Below are positions 8,271-45,387 of a stretch of DNA of 46,108 nucleotides, piece after piece (the first letter of the stretch is position 1; each line of letters opens with the position of its first letter). The DNA comes from Syntrophobacterales bacterium (GTDB lineage: Bacteria > Desulfobacterota > Syntrophia > Syntrophales > UBA5619), in contig JAHYJE010000028.1 in assembly GCA_019429105.1 (NCBI GenBank), forward strand, positions 1 to 46,108. The letters run 5' to 3'. Under the pieces are notes generated by a model. It had not been told where the DNA came from. It did no database searches and worked only from the letters and a program-made list of their open reading frames with translations. The translations under genes were made by a program, and so were the position numbers.

Positions 8271-9326
8271 ATGAAGCCAAAATCGTTTCCTGCGATCGCT
8301 TTGATTTTGATCCTTCTTCTCTTGCCACGTCTATCCGTTGCCGGGGACGAAGAAGCGAGGAAGTCTGACACTCTGACCATTTACCTGGAAAACGATCTCT
8401 TCGCCTTCGATAATAATGACCACTATTACACCCATGGGACAAAAATCTCTTGGATTTCCCGGGATCTTTCGGACTATCGCGACATTGTGATTGCGCCGTC
8501 ATGGATGCATCTTTTCATTGAACGGATGCCTTTCGTCAACGATCCTGGAGAGCAGCGCTCGGTTTCTGTCTCATTGGGACAGAACATCTACACACCGGAG
8601 GACAAAGAACGGAGCGACCTGATCTTAGACGACCGACCCTATGCCGGGATCACCTATCTTGGACTGGGGCTCCACAGTAAGAGCCAGCGTCAAATGGACA
8701 CCCTTGAATTTGATTTTGGCATCGTCGGACGCCATTCCTATGCTGAGGATTGCCAGCAGGAGATCCATAACTGGACGGATTCGGGCAAATCCACAGGGTG
8801 GTCGCATCAGCTCCATGACGAACTCCTATTGAACCTTTATTTCGAGCGCAAATGGAAAGCATTCAAATCCGGAAGTTCAGGAGGTCTCGGATTTGACTGC
8901 ATTCCCTACATGGGAGTCGCTGTCGGAAACGCCTACACCGGAGTCAATCTGGGCGGACAGATGCGCTTCGGCTGGAACATCCCGAACGATTTCGGGACCT
9001 ATCTGATCCGACCGGGATCGGACAGCAGTGCCCCGGTGGACAACGCAGACCCCCGTTTCTTCCGCCCGTTCCATCGTTTCGGCATCCACGTCTTCCTGGC
9101 CGTTGACGGAAACGCCGTTGCCCGGAACATCCTGCTCGACGGGAATACCTTTCGGGGCAGCCACAGCGTCGACAAAAAGCCGTTCGTCGCTGATCTGATC
9201 GGCGGAATTGGCATGATCATTCATCGATTCAAGATTACCTACGCCTATGTTCACCGAACGAAGGAATTTGATACCCAGAAGGACGAACAGGATTTTGGGG
9301 CGATCTCCGGATCGTTCACGTTTTAA
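8271..9326 (+). CDS. lpxR: LpxR-like lipid A 3'-O-deacylase (outer-membrane beta-barrel)
   Basis: 351 residues with a signal peptide (MKPKSFPAIALILILLLLPRLSVAG, cleavage about residue 25). LpxR-family hallmarks follow: YLENDLFAF with the Asn-Asp pair at residues 41-42, HYYTHG at 51-56, DRPYAG at 121-126, and QQEIH with His about 166 equivalent to the catalytic His. The C-terminus ends in alternating hydrophobics and a terminal Phe (SGSFTF), typical of barrel proteins. LpxR removes the 3'-acyloxyacyl chain of lipid A at the outer surface and depends on calcium. All key residues look intact although both neighbours are broken. The ribosome site is weak. It is probably monocistronic, with an acyltransferase pseudogene upstream. 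Confidence 0.85.
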   Translation: MKPKSFPAIALILILLLLPRLSVAGDEEARKSDTLTIYLENDLFAFDNNDHYYTHGTKISWISRDLSDYRDIVIAPSWMHLFIERMPFVNDPGEQRSVSVSLGQNIYTPEDKERSDLILDDRPYAGITYLGLGLHSKSQRQMDTLEFDFGIVGRHSYAEDCQQEIHNWTDSGKSTGWSHQLHDELLLNLYFERKWKAFKSGSSGGLGFDCIPYMGVAVGNAYTGVNLGGQMRFGWNIPNDFGTYLIRPGSDSSAPVDNADPRFFRPFHRFGIHVFLAVDGNAVARNILLDGNTFRGSHSVDKKPFVADLIGGIGMIIHRFKITYAYVHRTKEFDTQKDEQDFGAISGSFTF

Positions 9327-42154: not shown

Positions 42155-42482
42155 CCATTTATAACGATACCTGGCAGGAATATTACCGCCAAATCGATCT
42201 GTGCGTACGGGAAAGGAACCTGTCTGGATTTATCAGTTATGCCGTGCTCGGTTTCCGCGACGGGCTGCAGGGCGTTCTGGATACCGTTCAGGCAAACCTT
42301 CTGGAAATGTCATGGCAAAAATTCATCTATGATACCCTGGACGGCAAGAAGGCCATGGGCAAGACCCGCGCCATTGTAAAGCGGCAGCGTAGCCTTGCCC
42401 TCCAGTTCCCCGTGGAGAAGTGGAATACCCCTGAAGAGCTTGTCGTCAGCTCCGGAATCCTTGCGAAGGAGTATGCCATCCC
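42155..42482 (+). pseudogene. Fic-family protein, C-terminal fragment
   Basis: An open frame reads DTWQEYYRQIDLCVRERNLS, then GFISYAVLGFRDGLQGVLDT, SWQKFIYDTLDGKKAMGKTR and LALQFPVEKWNTPEELVVSS. This pattern (YYRxIDxCVRxxxLxxFISYALxGFxDGL) is the region after the Fic domain in Fic AMP-transferase-like proteins. The catalytic HPFxxGNGR motif is missing. The 5' end is lost and the frame runs into RecQ-derived sequence near 42485. It is probably a relic. Family assignment is from motif memory. Confidence 0.5.
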
Positions 42483-42490
42483 TTGCTTCA

Positions 42491-42880
42491 GCAACGATCG
42501 TGGTTTCCCCGCTGATCTTCCTCATGAAGGACCAGATGGACCAGTTGCGGGAATACGGCGTTCCGGACCGTTGTGGAATGTGCGACAACTGCCGAATGGG
42601 GGAAGCGGAAAGTGTCCTCGTCGATCTGACCATCCCAGCGCAGATGTTTCTCTCCCGTGTCAAACGGACCGGCGAAATCTTCGGCGCGGGCCATATCGTC
42701 GATGTCCTGCGGGGGTCGAATTCGCAGAAGATCCTGAAATTCCGGTACGAAAGACTCTCCAACTATGGAATCGGCACGGCCTGTTCCTTAAAGCAATGGC
42801 GCCACTTATCTCGCCAATTTATTCATAAAAGCCTGTTGCTTTATGACTATGAGCACGGAACGACAGAAACCGGTCCCAAT
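42491..42880 (+). pseudogene. recQ: RecQ helicase with helicase core deleted
   Basis: In one frame ATIVVSPLIFLMKDQMDQLREYG, the RecQ motif Ia region (SPLxSLMxDQ), is followed immediately by VPDRCGMCDNC, part of the RecQ zinc site. Then VDLTIPAQMFLSRVKRTGEI, HIVDVLRGSNSQKIL and LSNYGIGTACSLKQWRHLSR form the RQC winged helix. Everything between is gone, including Walker B (DExH) and the second RecA domain, roughly 300 residues. A clean in-frame deletion leaves an open but non-functional gene. No start or helicase motif I is visible. Confidence 0.75.
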
Positions 42881-42966
42881 AGCAGAGCTCGCGCCTGCTC
42901 CCCCAGACGACAGCGGCAAGCGCCGGTATCTTGTCATCGGCGAACGTTTGCCTTAATTACCATGTT

Positions 42967-43461
42967 TTACAGGTTGTCCAGCGGACTGCGCACCGCAAGT
43001 CCCTGCCGGTTGAGTACATGGGTATAAATCATGGTAGTCGCGACATCCGCGTGGCCGAGCAGTTCCTGTACCGTGCGCGTATCCGCTCCCCCGGACAGCA
43101 GGTGGGTGGCGAAGGAGTGACGCATGGTACAGGGGGTGACCCGCTGGGAAAGGTTGGCTGCAGTTTTGAAAAACCACCGCAGGGAAGCTCGAACCGAATC
43201 CGTATTTTTCTCCTCATTCTCCAGTGAGTGCAGATAGTCCAGTACCGATTCTATAGAGGTTCGGCGGTGTGCGGCCTTAAGGAATTTCAGCCAGGCAAAG
43301 ATATCCTGTTCCCATGTGCGTAGAACGGCAGGATCGGGGGCATCCCGATTGCAGGACTTCCCGCCATCCGGGAAACGAAACGGAGGCGTCTGCAGCAGCG
43401 CTGACTTTGTCTTCTGACTTTTGCATTGGGTAAAAATAGCAAATTCAGTTCCTGAATTCAA
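42967..43461 (-). pseudogene. intI: Integron integrase (IntI-like), internally deleted
   Basis: Open frame of 164 residues. The N-terminal part [20 protein letters not shown], then [14 protein letters not shown], is a SAM-like tyrosine recombinase domain. It is joined directly to the C-terminal part [16 protein letters not shown], then [20 protein letters not shown] and [20 protein letters not shown]. The THVLNRxGxxVRSPLD ending is typical of IntI. The first catalytic Arg region and about 150 residues are missing, and the usual His of HTLRH is Cys. The box II Arg, the H of LLGH and the nucleophile Tyr remain. It is inactive as sequenced and divergent from the cassette at 43650, exactly as an integron integrase should be. 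Confidence 0.75.
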
Positions 43462-43649
43462 GCCCTATGATTTTTTTGTGGCGTGAGGCGCCAAACTTTG
43501 CGTTGTTCGTTATAATTTATTGAAAATGTTAAATATGCACGGATACATTTCGCTTGACATACGAAACAGTATCATCTTATGGAAACAAAAACTTCACTGA
43601 TTTTCAACTGGCCATGTCTCCCAATGTTAAGACAGGCCTATTAATACTG
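43462..43649 (+). promoter_or_regulatory. Probable attI/Pc region of the integron
   Basis: This is the stretch between the integrase frame and the cassette insertion point. It ends at GTTGGGC (43649-43655), a core site GTTRRRY. TTGACA at 43554-43559 points toward the cassette and could be a Pc-type -35, although the -10 (TTATGG, 17 nt on) is weak. No other gene is visible in this segment. Confidence 0.5.
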
Positions 43650-43706
43650 TTGGGCATCAATGTTATCCTGACCTCAGCGAATAGTCGTCAAAACGGAGAC
43701 ATGAAT

Positions 43707-44027
43707 ATGGCAGAGTTAGACAAAATCCAGGTAGCAAATTTAATACGCGAAGCCATTAAAGATTCTCCCAAAAAATCGAAACGAGTGTTTCTAAAAACCC
43801 TCTTGAAAATGTTTGGCCACAAAACTTGGCAACGTCATTGGATTGAAGAGATGGACAAGTCCCTGACCAAATCAGGAATTTTGGTTTCTCCTTCCTTGGT
43901 CGAAGTCGTGCGCGATGGATGGGTTGTTCTTTCGGTTACCGACACACAGCTTCCCGTTGCCTTTCCAAAGGATCAAGGAGATGACGCCGCAAACAACAAT
44001 CAAAGCCATGGAGTTATATCGAGATGA
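43707..44027 (+). CDS. Cassette-encoded protein of unknown function, first gene
   Basis: 106 residues from ATG 43707, with GGAG eight bases upstream; an ATG two codons earlier is also possible. No known family was recognised. Features are an N-terminal amphipathic stretch (MAELDKIQVANLIREAIKD), a strongly basic middle (SPKKSKRVFLKTLLKMFGHK), and WQRHWIEEMDKSLTKSGILV, which together resemble a small helical nucleic-acid-binding protein. The rest is GWVVLSVTDTQLPVAF and a polar, disordered tail. There is no signal peptide or membrane helix. Its stop overlaps the start of the next gene (ATGA), so the two proteins are probably made together and may interact. Codon use is A+T-rich relative to the flanking chromosome. 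Confidence 0.65.
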   Translation: MAELDKIQVANLIREAIKDSPKKSKRVFLKTLLKMFGHKTWQRHWIEEMDKSLTKSGILVSPSLVEVVRDGWVVLSVTDTQLPVAFPKDQGDDAANNNQSHGVISR

Positions 44028-44602
44028 TTACGGTCATAAAGTCAAACAAAGAAATTAGTTTTGTAGTTTCTGAATATTTTTCCAAAAAAGCTGAGCAATT
44101 TATCAATGACATTAATAAGAAAGTGCTTGAAGAGCAATTAGTCACTAAACGCCTAAAAGATATCGAGATTCCAGAGCCAAGGCTGAAATCTATGATGAAA
44201 CAAAAATTAGAGAGCATGAATAATAAGGATGCTGACATTCATTTCATGCCATATTACGGAGTTGACGGGAGTTTTGGTTCTCCCTTATTCCAGTTTCAAA
44301 TATCACCATCCATCTCAACTTTGAAAATTACGCACTGGTATACGAAAGAAAGTATTGACTTAAAATCAGAGCGTATTACAGCCGCCGGTGTTATCGGAAA
44401 TAATGACAATAAATTAATTAAATATCGTATTGCTGGCAACGAGCTGAAAAATCTAATTGCCTGGGATGAATGGTCTGACAGCTTCGCGTTGTCAGACCGA
44501 TACATTTATGAATTTATAAGCGTCAGTATCGGAACAGCAGTCAGTGTAAAAAATATTGAAACAGGCAATGAAATCAACATTACAGACTATGATGATTGGT
44601 AA
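44024..44602 (+). CDS. Cassette-encoded protein of unknown function, second gene
   Basis: 192 residues; ATG overlaps the previous stop by four bases. It begins MITVIKSNKEISFVVSEYFS. A Lys/Glu-rich helical segment follows at about 20-70 (KKVLEEQLVTKRLKDIEIPE, then MMKQKLESMN). The second half is beta-rich (QFQISPSISTLKITHWYTKE, YEFISVSIGTAVSV) and ends in an acidic NITDYDDW. No catalytic motif or family was recognised; no signal or membrane segment. The stop lies seven bases before the attC, the typical position of a cassette gene end. A toxin-antitoxin, defence or stress function would be usual for cassette cargo, but nothing in the sequence proves one. Confidence 0.65.
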   Translation: MITVIKSNKEISFVVSEYFSKKAEQFINDINKKVLEEQLVTKRLKDIEIPEPRLKSMMKQKLESMNNKDADIHFMPYYGVDGSFGSPLFQFQISPSISTLKITHWYTKESIDLKSERITAAGVIGNNDNKLIKYRIAGNELKNLIAWDEWSDSFALSDRYIYEFISVSIGTAVSVKNIETGNEINITDYDDW

Positions 44603-44609
44603 TATATTA

Positions 44610-44700
44610 GCCCAACAAAAGCATTCACCAGATGGCGAGAACGCCGGCGGCGCTGACGCGGCAAGCTCATTGGCGCCACTGGTGATACAGGTCGTTCCCG
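44610..44700 (+). other. attC recombination site
   Basis: R'' core GCCCAAC (44610-44616) and R' GTT (44694-44696) flank a stem. TCACCAG (44625-44631) pairs with CTGGTGA (44679-44685), then T44633 with A44678, then GGCG (44634-44637) with CGCC (44674-44677). A44632 stays unpaired as the single extrahelical base that gives attC its polarity. The spacers between core and stem are 8 nt on both sides. The bases after GTT (CCCG) do not fit RRRY, so a canonical next cassette does not follow. Confidence 0.78.
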
Positions 44701-44757: not shown

Positions 44758-45387
44758 GTGTTCACCAAGTATCTCAAAGAGCTTTCCGCCGTGGCCCTGC
44801 AAGGGGACGCGAGAGAGGAAAGTTTCTACCCGACGCTTGCCGAAATGCTGGCGGCTATAGCCATGTTAACTGGGCGGGCGCATGTGCGCGTCACTACCCT
44901 TCCCAAACCCACCGATGCCGGGAACCCCGATTTTCGTCTGTGGAATGGTACGGACCGCATCATCGGCTATGTCGAAGCCAAGAAGCCGACGGAAGATAGG
45001 CTGGACGTTGTCGAGGAGTCTGAACAACTCACGCGCTATCGCTCCACGTTCCCCAACCTCATTCTTACCAACTTTCTTGAATTTCGGTTATACCGGAACG
45101 GCGAGCGCGTGGAGACGGTTCTTGCCGCCCGGCCTTTGATTCTTAACCGGTTGCGCACGATGCCGCCGGTGGAAAAGGCGGACGAACTGTATGCCCTTCT
45201 TGACCGCTTTCTCGGTTTCTCGCTGCCCAAGGCGTTCACGGCAGAATCTCTCGCCGTCGAACTGGCCAAACGAACTCGCTTCCTTCGGGATGTTGTCGCT
45301 CAGCAGCTTGGGCAGGAAAAGGATATGCCGGACGTGCTTTCCGGATTCTTTGAAGCTTTCCAGACCTATCTCATCAGACACGCATGA
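44758..45387 (+). pseudogene. Type I/IIG-like restriction-modification protein, N-terminal fragment
   Basis: 209 residues from GTG 44758 with no clear ribosome site. The sequence DAREESFYPTLAEMLAAIAM, then VRVTTLPKPTDAGNPDFRLW, GYVEAKKP and LTNFLEFRLYRNGERV matches the N-terminal nuclease domain (PD-(D/E)xK-like, with PDF...EAK) of large fused N-6 adenine methylase/restriction enzymes (type ISP/IIG class). Those enzymes exceed 1000 residues. Here the frame stops just after FQTYLI, at the usual start of the methylase domain, so it is a truncated relic. The DNA after 45388 is unrelated. Confidence 0.72.

Follow-up and report, generated by a model that had tools for sequence, protein, structure and literature searches.

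Most integron cassette genes lack an assigned function, and recent screens have found that a notable share of them protect against phages. Integron cassettes are an established phage-defence reservoir (Darracq 2025; Getz 2025; Kieffer 2025; reviewed in PMC12409362), from which defence systems with three or more genes have been reported to be absent (PMC12409362), and integrons are described, as in Xanthomonas, in which large deletions or frameshifts have inactivated intI (PMC12444791). The cassette analysed here lies in contig C28 (46,108 bp; hereafter the window, which is the entire contig), from a genome of 3.1 Mb in 95 contigs. As in the defence cassettes of sedentary chromosomal integrons, it is small, is bounded by attI and attC, carries genes without known function and occupies the first position by the promoter; unlike these, it adjoins a broken integrase gene, has a single recognisable attC at its locus, with an R' box non-canonical in its outer half, and has a defence role that is putative. 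Likewise, as in Xanthomonas, intI was inactivated and the cassette retained, but in a different lineage, by a deletion through which an N-terminal extension now runs directly into the final 66 residues of the integrase, and with copies from the same genus and the same family bearing different deletions. A cassette in an inactivated integron is, then, a known kind of arrangement with a new gene content, and the locus illustrates, in a lineage that has received little study, how a cassette becomes fixed once the integrase is lost.

The cassette and its attI junction

The window was compared with genomes of the same genus, family or order and, at attI, five integron copies were aligned: that of the window, one from G001 (same genus), two from G003 and one from contig C20 of the window genome. 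The attI of the window (43622-43655, forward strand), CAATGTTAAGACAGGCCTATTAATACTGTT, is conserved in G001 and shows small changes in the two G003 copies; CAATGTTAAGACAGGCCTATTAATACTG, located 5' of the integrase gene, is also common to the window, G001 and, with small changes, both copies of G003. The C20 copy has only the end of the conserved stretch (ATACTG). All five copies read ATACTG and then TT, and diverge straight afterwards, with TTGGGC in the window, TTAGGG in G001, TTAGTC and TTGGCC in G003 and TTATCT in C20. Divergence at this point indicates that different cassettes were inserted at one attI, and it sets the crossover at G43649/T43650, with the window diverging directly after GTT. 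We take the left edge of the cassette to be a genuine attI junction, which places the cassette first in the integron, directly beside the promoter.

A Pc-like promoter candidate, TTGACA-17-TTATGG, is found at 43554-43582 on the forward strand. The TTGACA, ca. 90 bp upstream of the attI crossover, is identical in the five copies, and the hexamer 17 nt after it is TTATAA in G001 and TTATGG in the window; the combination TTGACA-17-TTATGG was absent from the listing of the promoter consensus scan. The TTGACA element is a plausible candidate for a cassette-directed promoter.

The cassette spans 1045 bp (43650-44694, forward strand), with a G+C content of 40% as compared to 54% for the window. It contains ORF1 (43707-44027, forward strand; 106 aa) and ORF2 (44024-44602, forward strand; 192 aa), and we confirmed that these two co-directional genes overlap by ATGA, the start of ORF2 lying within the stop of ORF1. 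The first-pass annotation had proposed an integron cassette with matched cores, a reading that is borne out by the exact reverse complementarity between the 5' boundary GTTGGGC (43649-43655; TTGGGC on the cassette side) and the R'' box GCCCAAC (44610-44616), and by the attI junction conserved in five copies. The same boundary/R'' complementarity occurs in two other cassettes of the window genome. The integrase remnant, the conserved attI with its TTGACA and the further attC-bearing contigs of the genome were not part of that annotation. Homologues of the two genes with the same flanks and no attC, which it had considered contrary to a cassette, were not seen; the relatives of ORF1 and ORF2 that we did find are apart from each other, with different flanks. 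Together, these comparisons indicate that 43650-44694 is a genuine gene cassette captured at attI.

The attC site

The attC comprises 91 nt (44610-44700, forward strand), with R'' at 44610-44616, the extrahelical A44632 and R' at 44694-44700. Its stem, TCACCAG-(A44632)-TGGCG paired with CGCCA-CTGGTGA, has spacers of 8 nt on both sides, AAAAGCAT and TACAGGTC, and 15 nt separate each core from the extrahelical base. This is the geometry of the aadA-type attC sites from class 1 integrons, in which R'' is followed by 15 nt and the extrahelical base, with 15 nt and GTT on the opposite side. Our geometry test required RYYYAAC, the 15-nt spacing and GTT, and scored 12 stem pairs; all 12 form in the window attC, in agreement with the equal spacers and extrahelical A44632 noted in the first-pass annotation. 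Its estimate that chance agreement of these features is small also held, since 12 Mb of order-2 Markov sequence yielded 32 matches with 8 of the pairs and three with 9 of them, and nothing above that. In the real loci that we examined, scores of 10/12 or above were limited to known class 1 attC sites, to apparent attC sites in the window genome and its relatives, and to a single 10/12 match in L098 that we attribute to chance. The sole other 12/12 site in these loci is a 91-nt attC on another contig of the same genome (C43:5587). The window attC has its extrahelical base on the R''-L'' arm and a C directly before the final GTT, both as described for attC sites (PMC2727003).

The R' box, GTTCCCG, departs from GTTRRRY and is canonical only in its GTT core. 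AAC and GTT are the only attC positions stated to be conserved, with GTTRRRY being common and not defining (PMC2727003), and RRRY is also broken at other attC-like sites, such as GTTCTCT (C20:12005) and GTTCGGT (L043). The sequence that now follows the cassette has taken the place of the outer half of R'; in the window, it is the beginning of a type IIG restriction gene that is truncated (44758-45387, forward strand). This gene retains the N-terminal 209 aa, of which residues 2-207 match positions 2-201 of the 1096 in PADLOC profile PDLC03610 (E = 1.6e-23).

Covariance searches, which the first-pass annotation had proposed as a check, with a missing match to count against the attC, went partly in that direction. 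The models R1 and R2, built here from 10 and 29 attC rows, are dominated by AAGCCG stems; R1, too specific for such stems, had no match at the window attC, and R2 gave a weak 12.5 bits (E 0.11 in 6.1 kb), the site not being listed in a larger, filtered R2 search. R1 scored the C43:5587 attC at 54.8 bits, and the accepted OXA-1 attC at only 14 bits; R2 recalls the OXA-1 and aac(6')-Ib sites better than R1, and stays weak at the window attC. These models also score the accepted OXA-1 attC poorly, the geometry and the comparative attI evidence outweigh the low scores of the window site, and we consider that the attC deduced at 44610-44700 is real. It is the one attC recognisable in the window locus.

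The single-strand folding energy of the site is unremarkable (z -1.45), and was rejected as not informative for discriminating attC sites. A search across the order for the exact pattern GCCCAAC-N-GTTGGGC retrieved mostly chance matches, as judged from control columns.

Remnants of the integrase and recQ genes

The integrase remnant occupies 42967-43461 on the reverse strand, and was delimited by comparison with the C20, C3 and C7 copies and with a protein from the same genus. Its last 66 residues match TIGR02249 (positions 250-315, E = 3e-29) and are preceded by a region of ca. 100 residues that also starts a longer integrase in G001. The catalytic middle is missing, so that the N-terminal extension is fused directly to the 66-residue end; additionally, the His of the HxxR motif is a Cys (TPCTMRH versus TPHTLRH), and there is an apparent frameshift close to the start of the remnant. 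No intact tyrosine-recombinase integrase was found in cis, TIGR02249 positions 250-315 being all that is left in the window copy. The integron beside the cassette is, as judged from this comparison, disabled, with a broken integrase gene. With the catalytic part of intI gone and the outer half of R' non-canonical, the cassette is probably held in the first position, effectively fixed there and beyond mobilisation by an integrase in cis. However, contigs C3, C7 and C20 of the same genome end within integrase genes, so that further copies may survive and allow mobilisation in trans.

An N-terminal extension of ca. 100 residues precedes the usual domain in the integron integrases of this group. 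The integrases at 42967-43461 in the window, at 895-1788 in L097 and at 957-1565 in L098 each lack a different internal part, including catalytic regions, with the frame open. The end of C7 (L013) and the start of C3 (L014) stop at the same base within an integrase gene and are 94% identical over 279 bp; integrase repeats thus probably broke the assembly at these two points. Next to the integrase remnant there is also a recQ remnant (42395-43027), which lacks two internal segments with respect to its relatives. At the two junctions, its aligned pieces overlap by ca. 17 and 15 bp, as would fit deletion between short direct repeats.

The two cassette genes

Neither product had been assigned to a recognisable family in the first-pass annotation, which does not hold for ORF1, whereas ORF2 has one remote relative. 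ORF1 is preceded by GGAG 8 nt 5' of its start. Residues 1-96 of its product are 68% identical to the N-terminus of a 266-aa protein from the Desulfobulbaceae metagenome-assembled genome UBA2213, the nearest relative with a name, and the product also aligns with the N-terminus of WP_104992435.1 from Deinococcus sp. NW-56 (43% over 72 aa), a protein with an HsdR_N domain whose gene adjoins pglZ and brxL. Between the window and UBA2213, third codon positions are 56% identical and the first two 84-85%, with a dN/dS of ca. 0.15-0.2. The homology with these HsdR_N-type proteins covers their N-terminal domain of ca. 86 residues. Unlike them, ORF1 lacks the HsdR_N nuclease domain, stopping at the linker before it, and is followed by an unrelated gene; its last residues are unlike the C-terminus of the longer relatives. 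By these alignments, ORF1 represents, as a protein on its own, the domain with which HsdR_N-type proteins begin. The resemblance to BREX loci is limited to the neighbours of the Deinococcus relative: core BREX genes (such as pglZ, pglX and brxC) were not found among the ORFs around the cassette up to the contig end.

The AlphaFold2 model of ORF1 has the order helix-helix-helix-strand-strand (mean pLDDT 71.5), a winged-helix-like order of elements in a model of moderate confidence. Foldseek retrieved no significant match with this model, and the structural matches from VIA were rejected (Z below 6 only, to mixed unrelated folds). A match to the Pfam family 2CompARG was weak (E 0.13), the ORF1 family was not found in the viral contigs or phages searched, and no attC was detected around the gene for the UBA2213 relative.

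ORF2 belongs to a rare protein family, with no family match in Pfam, NCBIfam or PADLOC, no usable match in PDB sequences, IMG/VR, GTDB contigs, plasmids or phages, and only a weak C-terminal match in PHROGs (E 0.008). Among 155 genomes of the order, a single one (G101) contains a relative, which is full length, with 29-31% identity (E = 3.8e-13), and ends with the same conserved C-terminal motif, RYIYxFxSxSIGxA...DYxxW. A profile match in G045 (E 0.0015) was rejected, as it lies within a longer, apparently unrelated ORF. The structure prediction of ORF2 reached a pLDDT of 34, too low to provide a fold, and no catalytic motif was recognised in the protein.

The gene for the G101 relative lies 213 bp downstream, on the same strand, of a gene whose product matches AIPR (PF10592, E = 4e-33) and the PADLOC profile AbiU (E = 4e-27). 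The connection of ORF2 to AIPR/AbiU abortive-infection proteins lies in the location of its sole relative; ORF2 itself shows no homology to AIPR, and no AIPR gene was found near the cassette. No attC was detected in the G101 locus, and an ORF1-like gene is absent directly upstream of the ORF2 relative. We consider the pair of AIPR/AbiU gene and ORF2 relative a candidate defence operon. In the G101 locus (L054, 7750-10305), these two genes are found with genes for an AAA ATPase and a WYL regulator beside them.

Possible role of the ORF1-ORF2 pair

We hold it to be, on balance, probable that ORF1 and ORF2, in their fixed first-position cassette, constitute one small two-gene phage-defence or toxin-antitoxin operon. 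The first position would let the conserved upstream TTGACA element drive the cassette; the two genes would be co-expressed, with ORF2 probably translated by coupling to ORF1. The ORF1 domain, which is compact and winged-helix-like in its model and in other proteins precedes an HsdR_N-type nuclease domain, would supply nucleic-acid binding, sensing or autoregulation, and ORF2 would be the effector, standing in for the nuclease domain. Three considerations favour defence over other roles: the neighbourhoods to which both leads point are of restriction or abortive-infection type, the C20 sister array carries many restriction and toxin-antitoxin cassettes, and phage defence is well established among integron cassettes (PMC12409362). 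Neither gene matches the PADLOC defence models, and their relatives were never found together. The paired defence or toxin-antitoxin system suggested in the first-pass annotation is, from this context, plausible. More tentatively, as something possible yet short of probable, the pair could be a two-gene defence module not described before: a recognition domain otherwise fused to a nuclease would have been separated from it and paired with an ORF2-family effector, in a cassette that at 1 kb is small enough to travel and that the loss of the integrase now keeps permanently in the expressed first position. The cassette gains in this way a first functional lead, from relatives in restriction-type and abortive-infection-type contexts and from a position that predicts expression.

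Were 43650-44694 not a cassette, the attC would be a fortuitous hairpin that follows an ordinary chromosomal operon. This would agree with the non-canonical R', the weak covariance scores and the unremarkable folding energy; however, it is contradicted by the attI divergence point shared by five copies, and the adjoining integrase remnant, the exact attC geometry, the break in composition and the many further attC sites in the same genome also speak against it; we regard it as extremely improbable. We assign far more weight, albeit still on the improbable side, to a genuine cassette where ORF1 is the leftover N-terminus of an HsdR_N-type nuclease gene, now mainly serving to start translation of ORF2, the latter alone being, or having been, useful. 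The homology of ORF1 ends at the linker that precedes the nuclease domain, truncations or internal deletions affect the recQ, intI and type IIG genes nearby, and the G101 relative of ORF2 does without an ORF1-like gene directly upstream. Against this reading, ORF1 has an open frame with its own ribosome site, covers the entire N-terminal domain, shows a low dN/dS with respect to UBA2213 and overlaps ORF2 by ATGA, and its final residues differ from the C-terminus of its longer relatives.

A type II toxin-antitoxin system, with ORF1 as DNA-binding antitoxin and autoregulator and ORF2 as toxin, is a narrower form of the two-gene operon that we favour. Gene order and size, the ATGA overlap and a winged-helix-like first gene would all fit, and the sister array on C20 includes toxin-antitoxin cassettes. 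We find it unlikely nonetheless, given that neither gene matches a toxin or antitoxin family in Pfam, NCBIfam or PADLOC (an undescribed family being possible), that in our searches the ORF1 domain came up in fusions with a nuclease and never in antitoxins, and that the relative of ORF2 occurs without an ORF1-like partner. For the ORF1-ORF2 pair, we retain the broader reading of a small phage-defence or toxin-antitoxin operon.

Other cassette arrays in the genome

The window genome, according to our attC searches, holds several separate arrays or solo attC sites. The most unexpected observation is on contig C20 (L017, 483-7531), where genes for HsdM, RhuM, HsdS and HsdR lie in one first-position cassette of ca. 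7.04 kb, bounded by attI GTTATCT (483) and by an attC with the complementary R'' AGATAAC (7460). No attC was detected within these 7 kb, and each of the four genes matches its Pfam family along the greater part of its length. The cassette appears to be a complete four-gene type I restriction system, and is of direct relevance to the published statement that integrons lack larger multi-gene defence systems.

The C20 array continues (L017, 7525-12816) with cassettes for MBL-like, DUF6064, HigBA-like, DNA methylase plus MjaI-type nuclease and zeta-toxin-like products, with attC sites at 9196 (placed there rather than at 9189 by spacer symmetry), 9922, 12005 and 12758. Further attC sites, with R2 scores of ca. 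23 to 59 bits, are found on contigs C43, C33, C11 and C18 (L101-L104).
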